Source: Cupriavidus oxalaticus (GTDB taxonomy: Bacteria; Pseudomonadota; Gammaproteobacteria; Burkholderiales; Burkholderiaceae). From it: 64,000 bases of DNA. Where the stretch lies: positions 2,232,001-2,296,000 of the forward strand of contig NZ_CP069812.1 in the NCBI RefSeq assembly GCF_016894385.1. Direction: 5' to 3'. Made by a program: the position numbers and the translations under genes. Shown here one piece after another: positions 17,155 to 47,943 of the stretch (positions are counted from its first letter, which is position 1; each line of letters starts with the position of its first letter). The notes beneath the pieces are model-generated. The model did not search any database. It was not told the origin of the DNA and saw only the letters and a list, made by a program, of their open reading frames with translations.

Positions 17155-18027
17155 CTATGCCGCCCGGCTCTCGCTTCCCTTTTCCGCCAGGTTGCGCACC
17201 AGCACCAGCGACTCGCCCTGCACGACCACACGGCCATCCTCCCCGGTGACCACGCTCGCGAGGTTGACCAGGTCCTTGCCGGCGCGCAGCCGGACGATGC
17301 GCACCTGCGCCGTCAGCGGCTCATCCAGCCGCGCTGCCGAGGCCAGGCGCAGCGATTGCTTCATCCAGCCGGTGCCGCGCCCCGGCAGGCGCGTGCCGAG
17401 CAGGTCCGAGAACATGCCGGCCAGCAGCGGCAGCGGCACCAGCGCCTCGCCGAACCCGCGCGCGCGGGCGAAAGCGGAGTCGGCGTGGTACGGGTTGGCG
17501 TCGCCGGTCAGGGCCACGTACTCGCCGATATCGGCCGCGGTAAAGGCACGCGTGGCGCTAGCGGACTGCCCGGGGCGCAGGCCATACAGCGCCGGATCGC
17601 CCCCGGCCTCCGGCTGCTCGCCCGGCCACGATGGCAGCCGGCCCGGTGCTGCCTCGGCCAGCCACGACGATTCGCCTGCGGCCGCGACGCGCGGCGCCGC
17701 GCCGCGGATGCCCGCGCTGACCGTGGTGCCGAAAGCCGCCAGCCCCGCCTGCGGCTGCGGGACCAGCGCAAACGCCACCGCGTCGCCAACGAAGGCCGGC
17801 GTCGGGAACATCAGCGTCTGCGCCACCGGCAGCGCGGGTGCGGCCAGCTCCCGCCACGTATGGGCGCACAGCAGCGAAAACAGGAACATGCCGTGCGCCA
17901 CCGTGGCACCGAAATGCGTGCCGCGGGCAAAGGCCGGATCGCAGTGGATCGGGTTGTCGTCGCGCGACAGCGCGGCGAAGCGGTCGAAGTCGCGTTGCGT
18001 CAGCACGCGCGGCATGGCATCGGCCAT
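17155..18027 (-). CDS. MaoC-like dehydratase with two hotdog domains
   Basis: 290 residues made of two consecutive MaoC/hotdog domains. The N-terminal domain carries the R-hydratase signature (AALSRDDNPIHCDPAFARGTHFG-like block at about 19-41, then GMFLFSLL). The C-terminal domain repeats it: ALTGDANPYHADSAFARARGFGE (about 170-192). Both keep the Asp and His of the hydratase motif (D..NP.H), so both sites could be active; they may be an enoyl-CoA hydratase pair. The ATG shares one base with the stop of the 3HB oligomer hydrolase (TGATG), placing it as the last gene of that operon. A role in hydrating an enoyl-CoA made from the activated acid is inferred. Confidence 0.82.
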   Translation of the reverse strand: MADAMPRVLTQRDFDRFAALSRDDNPIHCDPAFARGTHFGATVAHGMFLFSLLCAHTWRELAAPALPVAQTLMFPTPAFVGDAVAFALVPQPQAGLAAFGTTVSAGIRGAAPRVAAAGESSWLAEAAPGRLPSWPGEQPEAGGDPALYGLRPGQSASATRAFTAADIGEYVALTGDANPYHADSAFARARGFGEALVPLPLLAGMFSDLLGTRLPGRGTGWMKQSLRLASAARLDEPLTAQVRIVRLRAGKDLVNLASVVTGEDGRVVVQGESLVLVRNLAEKGSESRAA

Positions 18028-20177
18028 CAGTTGGGCACCTCCACGGTCAAGGCATTGACGGTGATCGCATTGCCCGGCGCGGGCGTGGCGGCGATCGGCG
18101 GGACATTGGACGGCAGCAGCGTCGGCGCCGGCGTGTTGAAGGCACCGCCACGCGGCGTGGTGCGCACCACCTGCGACGGCGGCAACGCCTTGCCGGTGGT
18201 CAGGTTGTCATAGACGGCGTCGAGCGCGCGGTTCAGGTAGACATGGAGCGGCACGTAGCGGTTGCTGTAGCCCGCCACCAGCCCGATGAAGGCATCGAAA
18301 TGCTGGGCGTTCTCCACCTCGATGTACGACAGCTTGCTGGCCACGCCCTCCTGCTGGCGGTTCAGCCCCAGGTACGGGCGCGAGGTATGGTTCACCGGCA
18401 GCAGGCCGTCGCTGCGGCCATGCACGATCACCGCCGGCTTGCCGCGCAGGTTGCCGTTGCGCAGCGTCAGCGCCTGGCCCGCCTGCAGTGCGCGTGCCGT
18501 GGCGTCGGTGCCGGCCAGCAGCTTGCGCAGGCAATCGGCGCCATCGTAGTTGAGGTCGGTGCGGCCGGTCGATGCCGACACGGAAACCAGGTTCAGGTAC
18601 GGGCCGTGCGTCGGGTCGAGATCGTTGATCAGCTGCACCGAGGGCGGCTGCGGCGGGATGCCGTTGCCGGTGGCGAACATCGACGCCAGCGCGGCGGGTG
18701 CGATCGCCGCGGGCTTCAGGTCGGTCAGCGTATTGGCGAAGCTGTAGCCGCACAGCTTGTCGGTCACGCTCGCCTGCGCGTAGGCGTTGGCATAGGTCAC
18801 GGTAATCGCGGCAGCCGTGTCGAATGCGGACAGCGACGGGTGCAGGTCATCGGACTCCGGTTCCCAGCCCGCTTCATGCAGGGCCTGCAGCGCGCTGGCG
18901 CTCTGCTCGCTGGTATTGGCGCCGGTGACCAGTCCCTTTTCCGCGAGCGTGGTGCAGCGTGCGGCAAAGAACGGCGCCGTGGTCGGGTTGTCGTAGAACG
19001 GCGACTGCGTCAGCGCGGTGGTGCGCGCGGCGCAGTGCTGCAGCAGGTTGGCCGTGCTGGTGTAGTCATACAGCGTGCGGCCGGAGGACAGCACCTGCAC
19101 GCCGCCGCGCCGCACCACGACGCCCGTGTCCGGTGGCATGTTGAGGTTGGGCTCGCCCACGGCCACACCGTCGATCAGGCCATCGGCATCCTGCTCGGCC
19201 GCGGCCACCGCGGCGCCGCCGCCGTTCGACACGCTCGACGCAATCACCAGGATCTTGTCCTTGTCCAGGCTGCGCTGGCGCGTGCCGTTGGCGGACACCG
19301 CGCCGAAGCGGTCGTTGATCGCCCAGATCGCGAACTCGACCGCCTGCAGCGTGAACTTGCCCCAGTCCTTCTCCGGATTGCGCTGCGAATGCGCATGCTT
19401 GAACGCGAGCCGGTGCGGGCTGGCCGCGGTGAAGTCGGCCAGCGACGTGGCGCCGGCGGGCGCGGCAAATTGCGCATTCTTGCCGGCGGCCGCGCGCGTG
19501 GCGCGGGTGCCGTCGATCAGCGGCACGGTATCGGTGTCCAGGTCGTGCGGCGCGGCACCGGTGCCCTTGTCGGTATAAGCCACCGCGCAGCCGCGCTTCA
19601 GTCCCCATTCGCCGGTGGCGATGGCGCCGTACACGCCGCGCGAGCCCGACGACGTGGCGGTGATCACGCACGGCCTTGCGGTATCGAAGCCAGCCGGGAT
19701 CTGCACCAGCATGGTCACGTTCTGCTGGCCTGTGCCGTCGTCCGAGTACGCCAGGTATTCCACGCCCGCGATCTTGCCTTCCGAGCCGGTGACATTGCCC
19801 TGCGCGTCCACGTTGGGCCCATACAGCGAGCCATAGCCGCCGGCCGCGGTGGTATCGACGATGGCGCGGTAGTTGGCGTAGATCGCATAGCGCCGCAGTT
19901 CCGCCGCGGTCGGCGCGGTGGCATTGGCCGGCAGCGGCGCGGTGGCGCTGGAAAGTCCATCCTTGCCCAGCCCCGCGGTCAGCAGGTCGTCGCTGCTGCC
20001 GTTGTAGCTATTGATGGTGACCGTGCCGATATAGGCGGGCTTGGTGTTGGGGTTGCTGCCGTTGCCATTGTTGTCATCGCCCGAGCCGCAGGCAGCGGCC
20101 AGCATCGCGGCTGCGATGGCGAACACCGTGCGGCGCAGGCGGCTTTCCTGCTGCGGCGGAAACTGCTTGGATTGCAT
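18027..20177 (-). CDS. 3-hydroxybutyrate oligomer hydrolase, predicted lipoprotein
   Basis: D-(-)-3-hydroxybutyrate oligomer hydrolase family (3HBOH), which splits 3HB dimers and oligomers released from polyhydroxybutyrate. 716 residues. The nucleophile is within SSVSNGGG (S317); QHFDAF near the C-terminus is the likely catalytic His, and HGRSDGLLP the likely Asp region. The first 30 residues (Arg-rich n-region, TVFAIAAAMLAAAC) end in a lipobox-like LAAA-C30-G, so the mature protein may be a lipid-anchored envelope enzyme. GAAGGAGGGTGAC is a strong RBS. It lies downstream of the acyl-CoA synthetase (113 bases) and is coupled to the MaoC gene, consistent with hydrolysis and uptake of oligoesters. 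Confidence 0.9.
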   Translation of the reverse strand: MQSKQFPPQQESRLRRTVFAIAAAMLAAACGSGDDNNGNGSNPNTKPAYIGTVTINSYNGSSDDLLTAGLGKDGLSSATAPLPANATAPTAAELRRYAIYANYRAIVDTTAAGGYGSLYGPNVDAQGNVTGSEGKIAGVEYLAYSDDGTGQQNVTMLVQIPAGFDTARPCVITATSSGSRGVYGAIATGEWGLKRGCAVAYTDKGTGAAPHDLDTDTVPLIDGTRATRAAAGKNAQFAAPAGATSLADFTAASPHRLAFKHAHSQRNPEKDWGKFTLQAVEFAIWAINDRFGAVSANGTRQRSLDKDKILVIASSVSNGGGAAVAAAEQDADGLIDGVAVGEPNLNMPPDTGVVVRRGGVQVLSSGRTLYDYTSTANLLQHCAARTTALTQSPFYDNPTTAPFFAARCTTLAEKGLVTGANTSEQSASALQALHEAGWEPESDDLHPSLSAFDTAAAITVTYANAYAQASVTDKLCGYSFANTLTDLKPAAIAPAALASMFATGNGIPPQPPSVQLINDLDPTHGPYLNLVSVSASTGRTDLNYDGADCLRKLLAGTDATARALQAGQALTLRNGNLRGKPAVIVHGRSDGLLPVNHTSRPYLGLNRQQEGVASKLSYIEVENAQHFDAFIGLVAGYSNRYVPLHVYLNRALDAVYDNLTTGKALPPSQVVRTTPRGGAFNTPAPTLLPSNVPPIAATPAPGNAITVNALTVEVPN

Positions 20178-20290
20178 GTCACCCTCCTTCTGTCGCCCGT
20201 GTCGGGGCGGTAGAGACGAACGTCAATGGAGAACAGCGGAGACTGCGGACAGCGGAACTGCGGGAAATACGTATGGCGGGGCGCGGCGCG

Positions 20291-21835
20291 TCAGCCGGCA
20301 AACCTGGCGCGCAGCTTGTGCTTTTCTACCTTGCCGGATGGCGTGCGCGGCAAGGCGTCGACAAAGCGCACATGGCGCGGCACCTTGTAGCCCGCAAGCT
20401 GCGCCTTGCAATGGGCGATGACCTGCGCTGCATCGAGCGAGGCGCCAGCGCGCAGCACCACCAGCGCCATGCCGGCTTCGCCCCAGCGTTCGTCCGGCGT
20501 GCCGATCACGGCGGCCTCGGCCACGCCCTGCAGCTGGAACAATACGTTCTCGACTTCCGCGGGATAGACGTTCTCGCCGCCGGAGATGTACATGTCCTTG
20601 GCGCGGTCGACAATGTAGTAGTCGCCCTCCTCGTCGCGCCAGGCGATATCGCCGGAATGCAGCCAGCCGTCGCGGATCGCATCGGATGTCGCTTCCGGCA
20701 GGTTCCAGTAGCCGGGCGTGACGCCTGGCCCCTTGATCAGCAGTTCGCCGCGCTCGCCGGGCGCGACGTCGTTGCCCAGCGGGTCGACGATGCGCGTCAG
20801 CATCGACCCCACCGGCTTGCCGATGGTGCCGATCTTGCGGCGCGCGGTGCCTTCGTCGCAGACAAAGACCGTGGGGCCGGTTTCGGTCATGCCGAAGCCG
20901 AAGCAGATGGTCACGCCCTTGGCCAGGTAGGCTTCCAGCAGCGGCCGCGGCACCGGCGAGCCGCCCGCCGACATGTTGCGCACGCCTGAGAAGTCCGCTT
21001 GCGCGAAGCCGGCATGCTGGCTCAGGAACAGGTAGACCGCCGGCACCGCGAAGAACATGGTGATGCCCTCGCCCGATCTGCTGTCAAGCCGGTCCAGCAC
21101 GACCTGCGGCTCGAACTGCCGCATGATGTGCACCGTGCCGCCGGCGTGCAGCACCGGGTTGGCATACAGGTTCAGGCCGCCGGTATGGAAGAACGGCAGC
21201 ACGTTCAGGAACACGTCGTCGCGCGTGATCTTGTTGGCCAGCATGGCGTTGACGGCGTTGAAGAACACCATGCCATAGGTCTGGATCACGCCCTTGGGCT
21301 TGCCGGTCGTGCCGGAGGTGTATAGCAGGTGCCAGACCTCGGACTCGTCGCGGCACGGCATCTCGACGATGCGTCCCGAGGCCGCGTCGAGCACGGCTTC
21401 GTATTCGGTCCAGCCACCGGGTACATCGGCCGCCTCGTCGTCGGCAAGATGCAGTACCGCGCGCAGCGGCACGGTGCGCGCCAGCTCGGCGGCCACGGCC
21501 AGGAAGCCGTCGCCGGCGACCAGCACCTCGGGCGTGCAGTCCTGCAGGATCGGCAGCAACTCGGCCGCGGGCAGGCGCCAGTTCAGGCACACCATCACCA
21601 TGCCGGCCTTGGCGCAGCCGTACAGCATCTCGAAATAGTCGGAACTGTTGTGCGCCAGCACGGCGACGCGCGTGCCCGGTGCCAGTTGCAGGCCTTCGGC
21701 CAGGTATTCGGCGAAGCGGCTGGCGCGTTCGTCAAACTGGCGATAGGTCACCCGGCGGCCGCTTTCCACGTCCACCAGCGCGATCTTGTCGGGAGTGTGC
21801 TGCGCGTTCTTGTGCAGCCAGTCGATCACGTACAT
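20291..21835 (-). CDS. AMP-forming acyl-CoA synthetase
   Basis: ANL-superfamily ligase that activates a carboxylic acid to its CoA thioester through an acyl-AMP. 514 residues. The P-loop motif is LLYTSGTTGKPKG (about 171-183); FGMTETGP is the A5 region, LHSGDIAWRDEEGDYYIVDR the A7-A8 hinge, and TPSGKVEKHKLR contains the catalytic A10 lysine. Substrate cannot be read from sequence: the length fits medium-/long-chain and aryl-acid CoA ligases. It starts 15 bases after livM, so the imported solute of the Liv-type transporter is a plausible substrate. Cytoplasmic. Confidence 0.92.
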   Translation of the reverse strand: MYVIDWLHKNAQHTPDKIALVDVESGRRVTYRQFDERASRFAEYLAEGLQLAPGTRVAVLAHNSSDYFEMLYGCAKAGMVMVCLNWRLPAAELLPILQDCTPEVLVAGDGFLAVAAELARTVPLRAVLHLADDEAADVPGGWTEYEAVLDAASGRIVEMPCRDESEVWHLLYTSGTTGKPKGVIQTYGMVFFNAVNAMLANKITRDDVFLNVLPFFHTGGLNLYANPVLHAGGTVHIMRQFEPQVVLDRLDSRSGEGITMFFAVPAVYLFLSQHAGFAQADFSGVRNMSAGGSPVPRPLLEAYLAKGVTICFGFGMTETGPTVFVCDEGTARRKIGTIGKPVGSMLTRIVDPLGNDVAPGERGELLIKGPGVTPGYWNLPEATSDAIRDGWLHSGDIAWRDEEGDYYIVDRAKDMYISGGENVYPAEVENVLFQLQGVAEAAVIGTPDERWGEAGMALVVLRAGASLDAAQVIAHCKAQLAGYKVPRHVRFVDALPRTPSGKVEKHKLRARFAG

Positions 21836-21850
21836 TGCGCGGGCCTCCGC

Positions 21851-22927
21851 TCAGGTTGCCACGTCCTGCACGGCACGATTGCCGCGCAGCCGCCCCACCA
21901 CGCCCTGCGGGAAGTAGTAGACGCTCAGGATAAACAGCAGCCCCAGCCACAGCAGCCAGCGGTCCGGGTGCAGCAGCGACGACAGCAGCGGCAGCGCCAT
22001 GGTAGCGTCGCTGGCCAGCTTCATCACGTCCTGCAGGTAGGTCTGCGCCACCAGGAACAGCACCGTGCCGATCACCGCGCCGTAGATCGTGCCCATGCCG
22101 CCGATCACCACGATCAGCAGGATGTCGACCATGATCTCAAATGACAGCGACGTATCCGGACCGTTATAGCGCAGCCACACCGCCATCAGCACCCCGGCCA
22201 GCGTGGCGAACATCGCAGACAACACCGTCGACACCGTGCGGTAGACCACAGTACGGTAGCCGATGGCCTCGGCGCGGAAGTCATTCTCGCGGATCGCCTG
22301 CAGCACGCGGCCGAAGGGTGAGTTGACGATGCGCAGCAGCGCCAGGAACAGCACCAGCGCGCCGGCGAACACCAGGTAGTAGCTCAGCAGCTTGCCGGTC
22401 AGCGGCACGCCCAGCAGCTCGGCCTCGCCGAGCGAGAAGCCCGGGCGCAGCGCCTCGGGCACCTTGAAGGTCAGCCCGTCCTCGCCGCCGGTCCACTCCG
22501 ACAGCTGCGACACCAGCGTGGCGAATGCGGTCGCCACCGCCAGCGTGATCATCGCGAAAAAGATCGCGCGCACGCGCAGCGAGAACAGGCCGATCAGGAA
22601 CGCGAGCAGCGCCGAGACCGCCAGCGCGCCCACGGCGCCCACGGCGAGCGCGCCCCAGCCCGGCTCCATGCGCGACATCGCGATGGCCACGCCATAGCCG
22701 CCGATGCCGAAGAACATGGTGTGCGCGAACGAGACGATGCCGGTGTAGCCCAGCAGCAGGTCATAGCTGGCCACCAGCACCACGAAGATGCAGATCTTGG
22801 CCGCCATGTTCAGCGCCCGCGCGCCGGGAAAGGCGAACGGCGCGCACGCCAGCGCCAGCAGGATCAGCACCAGGATCACGGTCAGCACGCGGCTGCGCGG
22901 CAGGTCGCCGGAGAGAAGTCGGATCAT
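21851..22927 (-). CDS. livM: Branched-chain amino acid-type ABC transporter permease LivM
   Basis: HAAT-family inner-membrane permease, 358 residues, about ten hydrophobic spans. LivM signatures are present: SYDLLLGYTGIVSFAHTMFFGIGGY and RYNGPDTSLSFEIMVDILLIVVIGGMGT. The coupling region is LQAIRENDFRAEAIGY. The start MIRLLSGDLPRSR lies 17 bases after the livH stop. The preceding part of the frame lies within livH and was excluded. The ligand of such transporters ranges over amino acids, amides, aromatic acids and short-chain acids. Confidence 0.93.
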   Translation of the reverse strand: MIRLLSGDLPRSRVLTVILVLILLALACAPFAFPGARALNMAAKICIFVVLVASYDLLLGYTGIVSFAHTMFFGIGGYGVAIAMSRMEPGWGALAVGAVGALAVSALLAFLIGLFSLRVRAIFFAMITLAVATAFATLVSQLSEWTGGEDGLTFKVPEALRPGFSLGEAELLGVPLTGKLLSYYLVFAGALVLFLALLRIVNSPFGRVLQAIRENDFRAEAIGYRTVVYRTVSTVLSAMFATLAGVLMAVWLRYNGPDTSLSFEIMVDILLIVVIGGMGTIYGAVIGTVLFLVAQTYLQDVMKLASDATMALPLLSSLLHPDRWLLWLGLLFILSVYYFPQGVVGRLRGNRAVQDVAT

Positions 22928-22944
22928 GGGTCGTGTCCTTCCGT

Positions 22945-23967
22945 TCAGCGCCGCGCCACCGGGAACAGCCCTTGCGGGCGCCACAACAGGATCAGCATCA
23001 TCAGCAGGATGTTGGAGAACAGCGCAACCTTCGGGAACAGGAAACCGGTGTAGTTCGCCATCAGGCCGACCAGCAGCGCGCCGACGAAGCAGCCCGTGGT
23101 CGAGCCCAGACCGCCGATGATGATGACGATAAAGATCAGCACGTTCACCTGCGCGCCGATCGCCGCGGTGATGTTCTGCTGGTACAGGCCCCACAGCACG
23201 CCGCCCAGCCCGGCCAGGCCGGCGCCGGCCACGAACACGCCGATGAACAGCCGGCGGATGCGATAGCCGAGCGCCTCGACCATCTCGCGATTTTCCACGC
23301 CCGCGCGGATCAGCAGGCCGATGCGGGTGCGGTTGAGCAGCAGCAGCATCGCGATGAAGATCACCAGCCCGAGGGCCATCGCGATCAGCCGGTATTTCTC
23401 GATCGCCGCATCGCCCAGCAGCACCGCGCCGCGGAAAGTGGTGGGCACCTGCAGCGCGATGGTTTCCGGGCCCCAGATCGCCTTGATCAGCTGCTCGGCC
23501 ACGATCATGCCGCCCATGGTGATCAGGATCTGCTTCAGGTGCTGGCCGTAGACCGGGCGCACCACCACGCGCTCGAAGAACAGGCCGACCGCGCCGGCGG
23601 CGACCATGGCCGCTGCGATCGCCAGCGCGAAGACCGCGAGGTTCTGCACGAGGCTGTCTGCCTCCACCCAGCCTGCCATCGGCAGCAGCACAGACGCTGC
23701 AACGTAGGCGCCCAGCGCGATGAAGGCGCCATGGCCGAAGTTGAGCACGTCCATCAGGCCGAAGACCAGCGTCAGGCCGGAGGACACCACGAAGATGATC
23801 ATCCCCATCGCCAGCCCGGCAACGGTCAGCGTGAGCCAGGTCGAAGGGCTGCCGACCAGCGGGAAGGCCAGCAGCATCAGCAGCGGCGCCAGGGCCAGCG
23901 GAGTCCAGTCAAGGCGGACCTTGGGCAGGGCTGCCGGCGCTGTGGCCGGCAAGGTCGAAGTGGTCAT
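22945..23967 (-). CDS. livH: Branched-chain amino acid-type ABC transporter permease LivH
   Basis: Second permease of the HAAT importer, 340 residues. LivH blocks: SSGLTLVFGLMDVLNFGHGAF (about 62-82), the coupling loop IRAGVENREMVEALGY, and VIIIGGLGSTTGCFVGALLVG. The N-terminus has about 25 hydrophilic residues before the first span, longer than E. coli LivH. It starts 15 bases after livF and ends 17 bases before livM. Confidence 0.93.
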   Translation of the reverse strand: MTTSTLPATAPAALPKVRLDWTPLALAPLLMLLAFPLVGSPSTWLTLTVAGLAMGMIIFVVSSGLTLVFGLMDVLNFGHGAFIALGAYVAASVLLPMAGWVEADSLVQNLAVFALAIAAAMVAAGAVGLFFERVVVRPVYGQHLKQILITMGGMIVAEQLIKAIWGPETIALQVPTTFRGAVLLGDAAIEKYRLIAMALGLVIFIAMLLLLNRTRIGLLIRAGVENREMVEALGYRIRRLFIGVFVAGAGLAGLGGVLWGLYQQNITAAIGAQVNVLIFIVIIIGGLGSTTGCFVGALLVGLMANYTGFLFPKVALFSNILLMMLILLWRPQGLFPVARR

Positions 23968-23982
23968 TGGTCTCGTCCCGCG

Positions 23983-24723
23983 TTACTGGTGCGCCGCCAG
24001 CGACAGCCCCAGCAGTTGCTGTTGCAGCGCCTCATCCCCCGCCAGCGCCGCCATCGTTCCCGCATGCACGGTGCGTCCGTCATCCATCACCGCCACCGTA
24101 TCCCCCACCGACTTCGCCATGTTGAAGTTCTGCTCCACCAGCAGGATCGACACGTCGGTCTGCTTGAGCTCGCGGAATACATGGATCATGTTCTGGATGA
24201 TGGCCGGCGCCAGCCCCTTGGTGGGTTCATCCACGATCAGCAGCTTGCGCGGCTCGATGATCGCACGCGCCACCGACAGCATCTGCTTCTGCCCGCCCGA
24301 CAGCACGCCGGCACGCTGGTGCCAGAAGGTCTTCAGTGCCGGGAACATGCGAAAGACCCAGTCCAGCCGCCGTTCGTCGATGGCCCCGCTGCGTGCGGCC
24401 AGGCGCATGTTCTCGGCCACGGTGAGGTCGGAGAACACGCTCATGTTCTCCGGCACGTAGGCAATGCCCGCCTGCGCGATCGACGGCGTGCTGTGGCGCG
24501 TGATGTCCGTGCCGTCGAAGCTCACCGAGCCCGCGCTCGCCTGCCACAAGCCCATGATGGTCCGCAGCGTCGTAGTCTTGCCGGCGCCGTTGCGTCCCAG
24601 CAGCATGGTCACGCCGCCGCGCGGCACGTCGAAGCTGACGCCGTGCAGGATGTGGTACGGGCCGATATGGGTCTGCACGCCCTGCAGCCGCAGGATCGGC
24701 GTGGCGGGTCGCGCGTCAGCCAT
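23983..24723 (-). CDS. livF: Branched-chain amino acid-type ABC transporter ATPase LivF
   Basis: 246-residue ABC ATPase. Walker A is GRNGAGKTTTL, the signature LSGGQKQMLSVARA, Walker B LLIVDEPTKGLAP and the H-loop region LLVEQNFNMA. YVPENMSVFSDLTVAENM is the LivF Q-loop region. The gene overlaps the 3' end of livG by 8 bases, indicating translational coupling. It forms a heterodimer with LivG. Confidence 0.94.
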   Translation of the reverse strand: MADARPATPILRLQGVQTHIGPYHILHGVSFDVPRGGVTMLLGRNGAGKTTTLRTIMGLWQASAGSVSFDGTDITRHSTPSIAQAGIAYVPENMSVFSDLTVAENMRLAARSGAIDERRLDWVFRMFPALKTFWHQRAGVLSGGQKQMLSVARAIIEPRKLLIVDEPTKGLAPAIIQNMIHVFRELKQTDVSILLVEQNFNMAKSVGDTVAVMDDGRTVHAGTMAALAGDEALQQQLLGLSLAAHQ

Positions 24724-25576
24724 GGTTCCCCTCCTCCTCCGCCATGCCCAGGTAGGCCTGCTGCACCACCGGCGAGGCGATCACCTCGGCCGGGTCGCCG
24801 TCGGCCACCAGCGTGCCGTTGTGCAGCACGATGATGCGGTCGGCCAGCGAGCGCACCACGTCCATCTTGTGCTCGACCAGCAGCACGGTCTTGCTGCGGT
24901 CCTGGCGGATCTCGCGGATCAGGTCCAGGATCACCGGCACCTCGTCCACGCTCATGCCCGCGGTGGGCTCGTCGAACATGAACACGCGCGGCTGCAGCGC
25001 CAGCAGGATGCCGACCTCCAGCTTGCGCTGGTCGCCATGCGGCAGCGACGCCACCGTCAGGTGCTGCTTGCCCGCCAGCGCCACGCGCTCCAGGATCGCC
25101 AGCGCCTGCGCGCGCACGTCGCGGTGGCTGGTCCACATCGAGAACAGGTCGATGCCGCGCTGCTGCCGTGCCTGCACCGCCAGCCGCACGTTCTCCAGCA
25201 CCGACAGCTGCGGGAACAGGCTGGTCAGCTGGAAGGCCCGGCCGATGCCGCGCCGGGTCTTCTGCGACACCGGCAGGCGCGTCACGTCCTCGCCGTCGAG
25301 CAGGATCTGCCCGGCAGTGGGCGGCAACTGCCCCGAGACCAGATTGAAATACGTGGTCTTGCCGGCGCCGTTCGGGCCGACGATGCAGGTCAGCTCGCCT
25401 GGCCGGAACGCGCACGACACCGCATTGACCGCGACATGGCCGCCGAAGCGGATGGTCAGCTCGCGCGTCTCGAGCAGCGGCCGGGCGCCGGCCGCCACTG
25501 CCGTGCCGCGCTGCACAGCGGGCGATTGCACCCCCGGCATGTCGGCAGCGCGTACGGAAGAGGCTGGCGCGTCCAT
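24716..25576 (-). CDS. livG: Branched-chain amino acid-type ABC transporter ATPase LivG
   Basis: 286 residues; Walker A GPNGAGKTTYFNLVSGQLPP, the long LivG-specific insertion FQLTSLFPQLSVLENVRLAVQ, degenerate signature LPHGDQRKLEVGILLAL, Walker B VFMFDEPTAGMSVDE and LLVEHKMDVV. The usual LSYG signature is replaced by LPHG, as seen in some LivG proteins. A Pro/Ala-rich extension of about 33 residues precedes the core. Its ATG shares one base with the livK stop (TGATG at 25574-25578). Confidence 0.94.
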   Translation of the reverse strand: MDAPASSVRAADMPGVQSPAVQRGTAVAAGARPLLETRELTIRFGGHVAVNAVSCAFRPGELTCIVGPNGAGKTTYFNLVSGQLPPTAGQILLDGEDVTRLPVSQKTRRGIGRAFQLTSLFPQLSVLENVRLAVQARQQRGIDLFSMWTSHRDVRAQALAILERVALAGKQHLTVASLPHGDQRKLEVGILLALQPRVFMFDEPTAGMSVDEVPVILDLIREIRQDRSKTVLLVEHKMDVVRSLADRIIVLHNGTLVADGDPAEVIASPVVQQAYLGMAEEEGNHG

Positions 25577-26763
25577 CAGCGGTGGTTGCGCACAGGCACG
25601 TTCATTTCTTCGGGCTTGATCTCGCGCACCAGTTCAGGCACGCCCCACGCGAAGGCCGGGTCCACCTTGATCTTGAAGTGGTACATCGACTGCATCGCCT
25701 GGTGGTCTTCCTTGCGGAAGGTCATCTTGCCCTTGGGCGTCTCGAACGACATGCCTTCCATCGCCATGATCAGCTTGTCGGTGCCCGTGTCGCCGCTGGT
25801 TTTCTTCAACGCCTCGACCAGCGCGATGCCCGCGGTCATGCCGCCGGCGGTGAAGAAATCGGGCGGCGCCTTGAACTTGCTGTAGTGATTGGACACCAGC
25901 CATTCGTTGGCCTTGTTCTTGGGGATGCCGAAGTAGTAGTACGTGGCCCCTTCCATGCCGGGAAAGTTCTTGTAGCTGGTCATCGCCGGCAGGATGTTGC
26001 CGCCGGTGGCGATCTCGATGCCGTAGCGCTTGGGATCGAGGTCGGCGATCTTGAACGGGTTGCCCGCACCCGCCCAGATGATGAAGATCACCTTGCGGCC
26101 GGGCTTGTCCTTGAGCGCATCGAACAGGCGCTGCGCACCGGCAGTGAAGTCGGTGGTGTTCGTCGGCAGGTATTCCTCATGGACGATCTTGGCGTTCTTG
26201 AGCGCGCCCTTGAACGCCTTCACGCCGTCACGGCCGAAGGCGTAATCCTGCGCCAGCGTGGCGATGGTCACGCCGGGCTTGTCCAGCGCCACCGCATTGG
26301 AGATCGCATCCTGCGACGAATTGCGGCCGGTGCGGAAGATATAGCGGTTCCACTTGTCGCCGGTGATCGAGTCGGCGACGGCGGGCTCGACCAGCAGCAC
26401 CTTCTTGTATTCTTCGGCCACGGACAGCATCGCCAGCGCGGTGCCGGACGACGTCGGGCCGACGGCGATATCGGCGCGGTCGTCGCTGTAGGCGGCAGCG
26501 AGCTGCGCCTTGGCCACGTCAGGCTTGCCCTGCGTATCCTTTTCGATCACCACCAGCTTGTTGCCGTTGACCGTCATGGTGCCGTTGGTGGCGTATTCCA
26601 GGCCCATCATCAGGCCGGTCTGGGTCTGCTTGGCATACGCTTCCAGCGCGCCGGTCTTGTCGTAGACGTGGGCGATGCGGATGTCCTTGGCCAGCGTTGC
26701 GCCGCCGGCAAGAAGGCCGGCGGCCATGACCAGGGCGCGTACGGCGAGGGGGTTGCTTTGCAT
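25576..26763 (-). CDS. livK: Branched-chain amino acid-type periplasmic binding protein
   Basis: Substrate-binding protein of the HAAT importer (Peripla_BP_6). 395 residues. A signal peptide (ALVMAAGLLAGGATLAK, cut near residue 25) is followed by the mature start KDIRIAHVYDKTGALEAYAKQ. VGPTSSGTALAML and TLAQDYAFGRDGVKAF are hinge blocks. AGGAGACA precedes this ATG; an upstream non-ATG start would lack a signal peptide. The pocket differs from the Leu-binding type, and the neighbouring acyl-CoA ligase argues for an organic acid instead of an amino acid; this is inference. It is the first structural gene after tetR. Confidence 0.92.
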   Translation of the reverse strand: MQSNPLAVRALVMAAGLLAGGATLAKDIRIAHVYDKTGALEAYAKQTQTGLMMGLEYATNGTMTVNGNKLVVIEKDTQGKPDVAKAQLAAAYSDDRADIAVGPTSSGTALAMLSVAEEYKKVLLVEPAVADSITGDKWNRYIFRTGRNSSQDAISNAVALDKPGVTIATLAQDYAFGRDGVKAFKGALKNAKIVHEEYLPTNTTDFTAGAQRLFDALKDKPGRKVIFIIWAGAGNPFKIADLDPKRYGIEIATGGNILPAMTSYKNFPGMEGATYYYFGIPKNKANEWLVSNHYSKFKAPPDFFTAGGMTAGIALVEALKKTSGDTGTDKLIMAMEGMSFETPKGKMTFRKEDHQAMQSMYHFKIKVDPAFAWGVPELVREIKPEEMNVPVRNHR

Positions 26764-26912
26764 GGCTGTCTCCTGTGTTCGCTTTCTTTGTGTTGGTAGG
26801 ACTGGAACCTGCTGCAACTGCGTGGAATGCCTGCTGCCCGGCTATGTGAGGGTCCGCCCGGCAAGCAAGCCGCGCATGGCGCCGGCGCTCTGCGCGACGA
26901 AGGCGGCCATGT

Positions 26913-27566
26913 TCATCGCGGCTGCAGGCCGTGGGCGATCAGGTCGAAGGCGGTATCGACCACCTTCTCCATGGAGGCCGGGCGCTTCCAGCGCGCATAG
27001 CGCATGCCGAGGAAGTTGCTGATGCCGATCAGGCACCAGGCACGTACCTCCGCATCGCCGGGGACGATCTCGCCCTGCTCTTCGGCGCGCTCCAGCCGCC
27101 GGCTGTAGAGATCGGCAAAAACCTGGAAGTAGCTGCTGTAGATGGTTTCGTCCACCGAGTAAGAGTCCAGCACGATGCGGTACAGGTTCTTGTGGCGCGA
27201 AACGAAAGAGAGAAAGGCCTTCAGGCCCAGCCGTTCGGCTTCCATCTGGCTGGCGGCATTGGCCACGTGCTTGCGCAGGTGGGCGCGCACCAGTTCCAGC
27301 ATGTGGCCGACCAGCGCGCGGAAAATGTCTTCCTTGTCCTTGAAGTACAGGTAGAAGGTGCCCATGGCAACCTTGGCTTCCTGCGTGATCTCGGAGATCG
27401 ACGCCGCGTAGTAGCCCTTCTCACCGAACACCTTTTCGGCGGCGCGCAGCAATGCCGCGCGGGTCTTCTGCCCGCGCGCGGTCTTGGGCGGGCACATGCC
27501 GCCGGCGTGGGCCATGTCGCGTGTTTCACGGGCTTCGCCGACTTCGCCAGTCTCGGTCTGGGACAT
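26913..27566 (-). CDS. TetR-family transcriptional regulator
   Basis: 217 residues from MSQTETGE; GGAGACA precedes this ATG, and a longer frame starting 108 bases upstream has no RBS. About 30 hydrophilic residues precede the TetR HTH (about 30-80: RAALLRAAEKVFGEKGYYAASISEITQEAKVAMGTFYLYFKDKEDIF). The ligand domain follows. TetR proteins of this shape often respond to acyl-CoA or fatty acids. The gene heads the liv-type operon on the same strand (149 bases before livK) and is divergent from the hydrolase at 27790. An inverted repeat in the divergent region is a candidate operator. Confidence 0.9.
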   Translation of the reverse strand: MSQTETGEVGEARETRDMAHAGGMCPPKTARGQKTRAALLRAAEKVFGEKGYYAASISEITQEAKVAMGTFYLYFKDKEDIFRALVGHMLELVRAHLRKHVANAASQMEAERLGLKAFLSFVSRHKNLYRIVLDSYSVDETIYSSYFQVFADLYSRRLERAEEQGEIVPGDAEVRAWCLIGISNFLGMRYARWKRPASMEKVVDTAFDLIAHGLQPR

Positions 27567-27707
27567 CTTGTCTCCGGTGGCGCTGCGCGCCTTGTCATGG
27601 GAATGCCAGCCGCTTCGGGTCACGCCGCAGGCGCCTCCTCGCGCCTGCCGCCCCGGAAACCGATATGCAGGCAAAACCTGATATCTGATTCATGTTTCAT
27701 CGTATAA

Positions 27708-27729
27708 ATTGACCGGTGTGAATGTCAAT
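27708..27729. promoter_or_regulatory. Inverted repeat, candidate TetR operator
   Basis: ATTGAC-N10-GTCAAT, perfect 6-base arms, in the AT-richer divergent region between tetR (start 27566) and the hydrolase (start 27790). Size fits a TetR dimer. No second copy was found before livK. Confidence 0.4.
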
Positions 27730-27789
27730 AGAGGGGCACCCTGCCCTCCGTTGCGTTGCTTCCCACCCACTGCCTGGAGAGACACGTCG

Positions 27790-28668
27790 TTGGACGCTCC
27801 CGATTCGGCTTGTGACAGCCCCGCCGACAGCGCCCCCGCCCCGCCCTTTGCCACCCATCCCGCGCACGGCACCTTGCCGGGCTGGCGCGAAGCCGGCGAC
27901 GGCCGGCCGCTGCTGCTGCTGCACGGCTGGTCCGTCAATGGCGAGGCCTTCGACGGCCAGCGCGCGCTGGCGCGGGCGGGGTTCCGGGTGATTGCGCCCG
28001 ACCATGCCGGCCACGGGCTGTCGCGGCACGGCACCGGCACCACCATCGCGGCGCTGGCGCGCGATGCCGCGGCGCTGGTCAGCCATCTCGGACTGGCCGA
28101 TGTGGTCGTGGTGGGCTGGTCGATGGGCGCGATGGTGGCATGGACGCTGCTGCGTGACCATCCGGGTTGTCCACTGGCCGCGGTCGGCAGCATCGACATG
28201 ACGCCCCGGCTGGTCACCGATCCGCAATGGCCGCACGGCCTCCGCGGCCACTACGACATGACCCAGGCCAGGCAGATGGCCGCACGCATCCGCGCCGACT
28301 GGCCGCGGCTGGCGCCTTCGGTGGCATTGGGATTGTGGGCGGCGGGACGGCGCCCCGACGGCGCGGCGATGCAGCGCCTTGCGCGAATGGCGCAGCGCTG
28401 CGAGGCCGCCACGCTGGCATCGCTATGGGAAGACATGGCCAGGCAGGATTTCCGCGACACGCTGCGTGCGGCGCGCCTGCCGCTGTTCCACCTGTATGGC
28501 GCGGCCAGCCGGCTGTATGCGCCGGCGGTGGCCATCGCCACCCGCGCCTTGCGGCCCGATGCGGGCCTGAGCGTGGTCGCCGGTGCCGGCCACAGCCCGC
28601 ACATGGAGCAGCCGCAGGCCTTCAACGCCGCACTGCGCGCGCTCGTGGCTCAGGCCAGCACGCGGTAG
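27790..28668 (+). CDS. Alpha/beta hydrolase (BioH/3-oxoadipate lactonase-like)
   Basis: 292 residues if translation starts at TTG 27790, which is preceded by GGAGAG at good distance; another in-frame TTG 81 bases upstream has no RBS and overlaps the putative operator. [17 protein letters not shown] is the oxyanion loop, [12 protein letters not shown] the nucleophile elbow (Ser), [12 protein letters not shown] the region where the acid is expected and [11 protein letters not shown] the His. In YGAASRLY the usual Asp (YG..D..) is Ser/Arg, so the acid may come from elsewhere. About 30 Pro/Ala-rich residues lead the protein. The 3' end overlaps crcB tail-to-tail by 19 bases. Substrate unknown; it could be an esterase or a biotin-pathway BioH analogue, but no bio gene is near. 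Confidence 0.8.
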
Positions 28669-47866: not shown

Positions 47867-47943
47867 TGGGGTGGCTGATGGGACTCGAACCCACGACGAC
47901 AGGAATCACAATCCTGGACTCTACCAACTGAGCTACAGCCACC
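47867..47943 (-). tRNA. tRNA-His (anticodon GTG)
   Basis: Cloverleaf is clear on the minus strand: acceptor GTGGCTG/CAGCCAC with the extra G-1 opposite C73, D-arm GCTCAGTTGGTAGAGT, anticodon loop TTGTGAT giving GTG, and T-loop GGGTTCGAGTCCC. CCA is encoded (47867-47869). G-1 and C73 are the histidine identity elements. Confidence 0.97.

Follow-up and report, generated by a model that had tools for sequence, protein, structure and literature searches.

A candidate TetR regulon for the use of extracellular poly-3-hydroxybutyrate fragments in Cupriavidus oxalaticus

A nine-gene operon behind a predicted TetR operator

In a 64,000-nucleotide stretch of the Cupriavidus oxalaticus genome (contig NZ_CP069812.1; hereafter the window), we analyzed a minus-strand operon running from position 27566 to 17155, in which a regulator gene precedes a complete HAAT importer, an acyl-CoA ligase, a predicted 3-hydroxybutyrate (3HB) oligomer hydrolase and a hydratase. 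All nine co-directional genes named in a first-pass annotation of this DNA (tetR, livK, livG, livF, livH, livM, lig, hyd and maoC) were recovered. The first, tetR (26913..27566), encodes a TetR-family regulator (PF00440 TetR_N, 57.6 bits against a cut-off of 24), and is followed by livK (25576..26763), encoding the HAAT-type periplasmic binding protein (PF13458 Peripla_BP_6, 158.5 bits), the ATPase genes livG (24716..25576; PF00005 ABC_tran and PF12399 BCA_ABC_TP_C) and livF (23983..24723; PF00005 ABC_tran), and the permease genes livH (22945..23967) and livM (21851..22927; both PF02653 BPD_transp_2), which together make up a full set of one binding protein, two permeases and two ATPases. Downstream lie lig (20291..21835), an AMP-forming acyl-CoA ligase gene (PF00501, 280 bits; PF13193 AMP-binding_C, 85 bits), hyd (18027..20177), encoding a 716-aa putative PhaY1-type hydrolase with a lipoprotein-like N-terminus, MLAAACG, and full-length membership in PF10605 (1085.6 bits against a cut-off of 27, profile positions 2-688 of 688), and maoC (17155..18027), encoding a two-domain hotdog hydratase (PF01575, 87.7 bits in two stretches, with a FAS1_DH_region match). 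The junctions had been described as overlapping or 15-113 bases long, which is accurate from livK onwards, with livK-livG and hyd-maoC overlapping by one base, livG-livF overlapping by 8, gaps of 15, 17 and 15 bases separating livF, livH, livM and lig, and 113 bases between lig and hyd, but not for tetR and livK, which are 149 bases apart.

Immediately before tetR, a sigma-70-like promoter (TTGACA-18-TACGAT; 27699..27728, minus strand) is directly followed by a predicted operator, AAACATGAATCAGATATCAGGTTT (27674..27697, minus strand), an inverted repeat that abuts the -10 box and conforms to the pattern AAACATGA-N8-TCA[GT]GTTT. Promoter scanning by itself proves little here, because it returned 2 promoter-like sites against 1.3 expected; in an alignment of 18 loci, all 18 had the TTGACA, a -10-like stretch and then the inverted repeat, with one change in L049. 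The match in the window is exact, with 0.10 matches expected at three mismatches, and no second match was found within the operon even at that stringency. Inverted repeats were also absent from the tetR-livK and lig-hyd gaps, by script criteria that miss the operator as well and so make the pattern search the better test. As far as can be seen the hydrolase is not separately regulated, with no other operator in the operon and hyd overlapping maoC by one base. A TetR helix-turn-helix domain together with a palindrome over the gene's own promoter is consistent with a TetR regulator acting at its own putative operator.

The predicted operator and its candidate targets across Cupriavidus

We scanned 36 Cupriavidus genomes, the window's own and 35 others (G001-G035), for the operator pattern. 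Allowing one mismatch, 24/36 genomes matched, compared with 1 match in all 36 for a reversed-pattern control. These included every genome with tetR (21/21, the tetR of G019 and G031 being counted from separate contigs), whereas 12 of the 15 tetR-less genomes had no match. The other three (G003, G005 and G030) matched through another palindrome, AAACCTGACC-N4-GGTCAGGTTT (G003:C9:178896, G005:C75:88741 and G030:C4:1186609), which in L254 and L255 lies before or at another gene and is possibly the operator of a different regulator; G030 has one further operator-pattern site. At one mismatch the operator occurred at 44 distinct places within the 21 tetR genomes. Sorting by coordinates, with a detailed reading of seven importer loci and three at depolymerase genes, placed 21 before tetR, 20 before the livG of a second importer, 3 before an extracellular depolymerase gene and 0 elsewhere. 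The window's genome holds two of these places, the operon described here and G000:C2:3749568, and no further one at three mismatches of a tighter pattern. At two mismatches the pattern also returned unassigned sites and control matches.

The second importer is a Liv system whose F, K, H and M components in the window's genome (L244) are 55-66% identical to the Liv set that adjoins hyd in L107, a locus outside the genus. Orthologues of its LivK (at least 85% identical) are present in 21/21 tetR genomes and 13/15 tetR-less genomes. The operator lies 1.8-1.9 kb before this livK in 20/21 tetR genomes, the remaining one (G020) having a site with two mismatches some 310 bp before livG, and at one mismatch it was found there in 0/13 tetR-less genomes with the importer (Fisher's exact p 1.5e-8, related genomes not being independent). 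In the trees, the tetR genomes do not form a single clade. By eye, the second importer of the window's genome is preceded on its own strand by two genes, one GMC-oxidoreductase-like and one aldehyde-dehydrogenase-like (L244 8678-11938); the GMC-oxidoreductase-like gene is also seen in L245, L246, L249, L250, L251 and L253.

The depolymerase sites concern one subgroup of type-1 extracellular polyhydroxyalkanoate (PHA) depolymerases. Across the 36 genomes five complete genes belong to it, scoring 193-208 bits (cut-off 150); incomplete matches occur in G004, which has no tetR, and perhaps in G033. An operator lies 131-205 bp before four of the five, at one mismatch in G007, G018 and G017 and at two in G028:C3, the last being weaker than the others since scans at two mismatches give control matches. 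The four encoded enzymes are 78-84% identical to the fifth, whose gene (L062) has no operator and sits in a cluster with a sigma-54 regulator. In L247 (G007:C3:350000-361011), a remnant permease-3HB dehydrogenase-hyd cluster with a broken hyd copy precedes the operator and complete depolymerase gene. From sequence we conclude that the operon and a second HAAT importer share the predicted operator, as does an extracellular poly-3-hydroxybutyrate (PHB) depolymerase gene in some relatives.

The operon is flanked upstream by a divergent alpha/beta hydrolase gene, moaE and moeA, and downstream by clpB. A comparison of this site across the genus found tetR with at least part of the cassette (the genes accompanying hyd) between moaE and clpB in 21/36 genomes, the window's included, a retention that goes beyond chance. 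The cassette varies: L049 and the C. pinatubonensis locus L124 have tetR-livKGFHM-hyd without ligase and maoC, L052 retains only tetR-hyd-maoC, no maoC was matched in L127, and the gene order in L130 is lig-maoC-hyd. The sole genome without hyd is G011, which is 54% complete. The hyd and MoeA trees mix Cupriavidus with and without the cassette. Such a pattern agrees better with repeated loss from one site, which is how we read the variation; a recent insertion of the cassette beside a resident hyd is less likely. These trees are not decisive, as several forks are open and the hyd tree comes from a quick search, in which 13 of the 14 non-Cupriavidus Liv-linked rows of the clade were drawn from the LivK search and are Liv-linked by construction, only L104 coming from the hydrolase scan.

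The divergent alpha/beta hydrolase gene (27709..28668, plus strand; PF12697, 80.6 bits) is a possible further member of the system, present in the window and in 14/18 cassette loci for which this stretch was read, and in 0/14 cassette-less loci; the TTG listed as its start falls in part on the tetR promoter and could be incorrect. In L047 (G016:C3) the maoC match is broken in two, the pieces being separated by about 2.6 kb or more, as though an insertion had interrupted it, and two Cupriavidus genomes carry second, very divergent PF10605 copies at 38-39% (L068 and L069; G026:C5 and G027:C3). Elsewhere in the window lies a tRNA-His gene (47867-47942, minus strand).

Importer neighbourhoods in other genera and the encoded proteins

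To place the importer family, we used the best 80 of 579 confirmed livK loci, so that neighbourhood counts lean to close relatives. Thirteen of the 80, at 91-98% identity, belong to Cupriavidus (11), Burkholderiaceae bacterium 16 and an uncultured Ralstonia; of the 67 others, 11 with less than 7.5 kb after livK were dropped, leaving 56. Nearly all of these (53/56) hold hyd, a type-2-like depolymerase or abH6, an alpha/beta hydrolase, the exceptions being L143, L146 and L178. Counted separately, hyd occurs in 20, abH6 in 47 and a sigma-54 regulator in 40, and in 19/56 loci a type-2-like extracellular depolymerase gene stands between livK and livG. The 47 abH6 loci include L180 and L185, cut by the locus end, L197, which is fragmentary, and L186, a weak match (29%); without L186 and L197, the 53 become 51. 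The two depolymerases scanned, from L104 and L107, exceed the cut-off of 280 bits, at 371 and 386. Judged by sequence, linkage of the importer family to genes for PHB degradation recurs within Burkholderiales.

In the window's genome, abH6 is best matched (40%, E 1.2e-47; next match 1.9e-11) by a gene that adjoins those for a 3-oxoacid CoA-transferase subunit and for a 3-hydroxybutyrate dehydrogenase, the latter at 392 bits against a cut-off of 307. Excerpts of PMC11767486 describe the homologue of H16_A1335 (phaY2) as an 870-bp alpha/beta hydrolase gene, and from its size and setting the abH6 match is probably PhaY2. In many other genera, abH6, which has no visible signal peptide, follows livM, suggesting that oligomers may come in.

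A hydrolase scan found 29 matching genomes outside the genus, and 20 stretches from 19 of them were read. The ten genomes outside this set are G056, G057, G061, G108, G178, G193, G209, G229, G234 and G253; in G057 (L064) there is no Liv set within its 17.5 kb, and in G253 (L094) a type-2-like depolymerase gene follows hyd. Next to hyd there is a Liv set of a second, different type in L062, L107 and L110, and a ligase of another type in L111, L112 and, behind the Liv set, L110. Ligase orthologues at 65-69% were found in three other genomes of the order, among 200 searched (G213, G118 and G137), each after a livKGFHM set, with maoC in L213. At part of the relatives' loci the genes were called by a crude script, which placed some starts wrongly, and names assigned by eye serve as leads. 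In L109 (G420:C16), two PF10605 hydrolase genes stand in tandem.

The nearest solved chains to LivK are 3n0x (589 bits) and 3nnd (566 bits). At the position of E. coli LivJ E226, which we take to be the Glu that binds the amino group, the window's LivK and 8/8 aligned relatives have Ile, and the three proteins of the second Liv type have Leu, Leu and Met; LivJ T102 is Val in LivK and Gly in the second type, and Y202 is Ala, once Pro. LivK reaches 50.5 bits on the NCBIfam LivJ/LivK subfamily model, against a cut-off of 477, and so falls outside that subfamily. The proposal of the first-pass annotation that the ligand is not an amino acid agrees with this score and with the Ile, which speaks against an amino-acid ligand and does not by itself identify 3HB. 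In L186 (Geothrix fermentans, a different phylum) LivK is 81% identical to that of the window, suggesting horizontal transfer.

Family membership suggests that Hyd hydrolyses 3HB oligomers; a search for solved relatives returned only one match, at E 0.61. By a loose pattern, 66/76 hydrolases of this type have a lipobox-like N-terminus, the window's being the less usual AAAC. Lig belongs to the AMP-forming family, its best NCBIfam model scoring 472 against a cut-off of 476. R-specific enoyl-CoA hydratases (MaoC/PhaJ) carry a motif of the Asp-x-Asn-Pro-x-His type, and in the MaoC proteins the N-half has DDNPIHCD in 17/19 rows and the C-half has the Asp and His of GDANPYHAD in 12/19; the C-half also matches the PhaJ-type (R)-specific enoyl-CoA hydratase chain 1iq6 (74 bits). 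The two halves are separate neighbouring genes in L277 (5113-5873), the second without the catalytic motif, which suggests that the window's MaoC is a fusion whose most secure active site is the one in the N-half.

A model for PHB fragment use, its rivals and known systems

We propose, at a probability of roughly 70%, that these genes form the main operon of a TetR regulon by which the cell captures and burns PHB fragments from outside. The linkage of the importer family to extracellular depolymerase and oligomer-hydrolase genes in other genera, and the tetR operator found both at a second importer and, among some relatives, ahead of an extracellular depolymerase gene, favour the use of extracellular PHB fragments that the first-pass annotation had put forward; its interpretation is partly supported, and in its main line it is right, on better evidence than the annotation had. 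In our model, TetR bound at the -10/start region would keep both the operon and the second importer repressed until it is released by a product of breakdown, which may be 3HB or its CoA ester. Oligomers reaching the envelope, from the cell's own depolymerase in some relatives or from other bacteria, would be trimmed there by the lipoprotein-like hydrolase; LivK would pass 3HB, and probably dimers or short oligomers, to LivHMGF, with the second Liv system importing in parallel. Remaining oligomers would be cut in the cytosol by the PhaY2-type hydrolase, after which the ligase would make (R)-3HB-CoA and MaoC would dehydrate it to crotonyl-CoA for beta-oxidation.

Several observations weigh against this model. 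In 14/36 Cupriavidus genomes hyd stands between moaE and clpB without the cassette, and elsewhere in the order only 4 of the 20 hyd loci read (L103, L104, L107 and L110) have a Liv set directly before hyd, with 2 of the others having a ligase and 14 neither ligase nor Liv set. This count alone is modest, because chance would give a little under one Liv set within 9 kb (PF12399 matches number 4 to 22 per genome in 12 genomes). Outside the order, hyd was found in 0/14 livK loci (55-70%), where L269 and L273 have abH6 and L266, L267, L283 and L284 a sigma-54 regulator. Type-2 depolymerases above the cut-off occur in 9/36 Cupriavidus genomes, the window's having none, and it also lacks an operator-bearing depolymerase, its two type-1 genes (251 and 256 bits) being of another kind; the strain may therefore feed on oligomers released by other bacteria.

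The location of the hydrolase bears on whether it and the ligase might instead serve turnover of the cell's own PHB granules, the importer recovering leaked 3HB or carrying something else. The C. necator H16 enzyme has been described as intracellular, and the window's lipobox has Ala rather than Leu at -3. Excerpts of PMC2842291 assign two such hydrolases to intracellular PHB mobilization, and those of PMC11767486 call the oligomer hydrolase phaY extracellular, so that the two sources, as excerpted, disagree on location. The cassette-less hyd loci would also suit granule turnover, which we nonetheless consider improbable given the lipobox-like N-termini, the extracellular assignment of phaY and the linkage to extracellular depolymerases and importers. 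Somewhat less improbable, and still unlikely, is that importer and ligase handle another acid, such as an aromatic or branched one, with hyd as a passenger. The solved chain nearest to Lig is named feruloyl-CoA synthetase, closely followed by a fatty-acyl-CoA synthase, and L270, L274 and L277 combine Liv, tetR (46-47%), ligase (44-49%) and maoC genes without hyd. L271 and L272 lie beside genes that look, by eye, like amino-acid or aromatic catabolism, both adjoining a PLP-decarboxylase-like gene and L271 also a ring-hydroxylase-like gene. Against such a substrate stand the PHB-type or PhaY2-type hydrolases in 53/56 of the close livK loci and the tetR operator before extracellular PHB depolymerases.

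An ordinary branched-chain amino-acid importer beside unrelated enzymes is very improbable: the family names alone point that way, and the 18 PF12399 matches in the window's genome make such importers common, whereas the substitutions at LivJ E226, T102 and Y202 and the low LivJ/LivK subfamily score argue against it. These 18 matches give each gene a chance of about 5% of having one within 9 kb, which does not explain the operator pattern, and we reject the idea of a chance neighbour. Returning to PHB fragment use, we tentatively suggest, at somewhat less than even odds, a more specific version in which a dedicated regulon for extracellular PHB oligomers places two different HAAT importers under one TetR, the strain may feed on the oligomers of others, and PhaY1 acts as an envelope scavenger rather than in granule turnover. 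The analysis as a whole names two candidate importers, a putative repressor and its predicted operator in the genus of the model PHB producer, and points to a different probable role for PhaY1.

In the open-licence literature we found no description of the operon, of its operator or of any HAAT importer that takes up 3HB, nor of how bioplastic-derived PHB monomers or oligomers enter Gram-negative cells, and no papers naming 3N0X or the locus tag RPA4397; the excerpted text of PMC12542648 makes no mention of oligomers. By genus and PF10605 family, Hyd resembles PhaY1 of Cupriavidus necator H16, which excerpts of PMC3430594 identify as the 3HB oligomer hydrolase H16_A2251, with PhaY2 as H16_A1335; unlike the window's hyd, PhaY1 is not linked to an importer or TetR in the excerpts found. 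E. coli LivKHMGF likewise has all five HAAT components in one operon, and the window's system differs from it in the Ile at LivJ E226 and in not reaching the LivJ/LivK cut-off. Extracellular short-chain PHA depolymerases of NCBIfam type 2 accompany the importer family in other genera, and some Cupriavidus have type-1 genes preceded by the tetR operator; the window's operon contains neither. Sigma-54-regulated 3HB catabolism clusters of the HbcR type, with a 3HB dehydrogenase, are resembled by L062, where genes for a sigma-54 regulator, 3HB dehydrogenase and a type-1 depolymerase are joined with a permease-like open reading frame, hyd and a Liv set; the window's operon has TetR and a Liv set of a different kind. 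Each part belongs to a known kind, and what is new is how they are combined, in a probable TetR regulon that brings together HAAT importers for PHB fragments.

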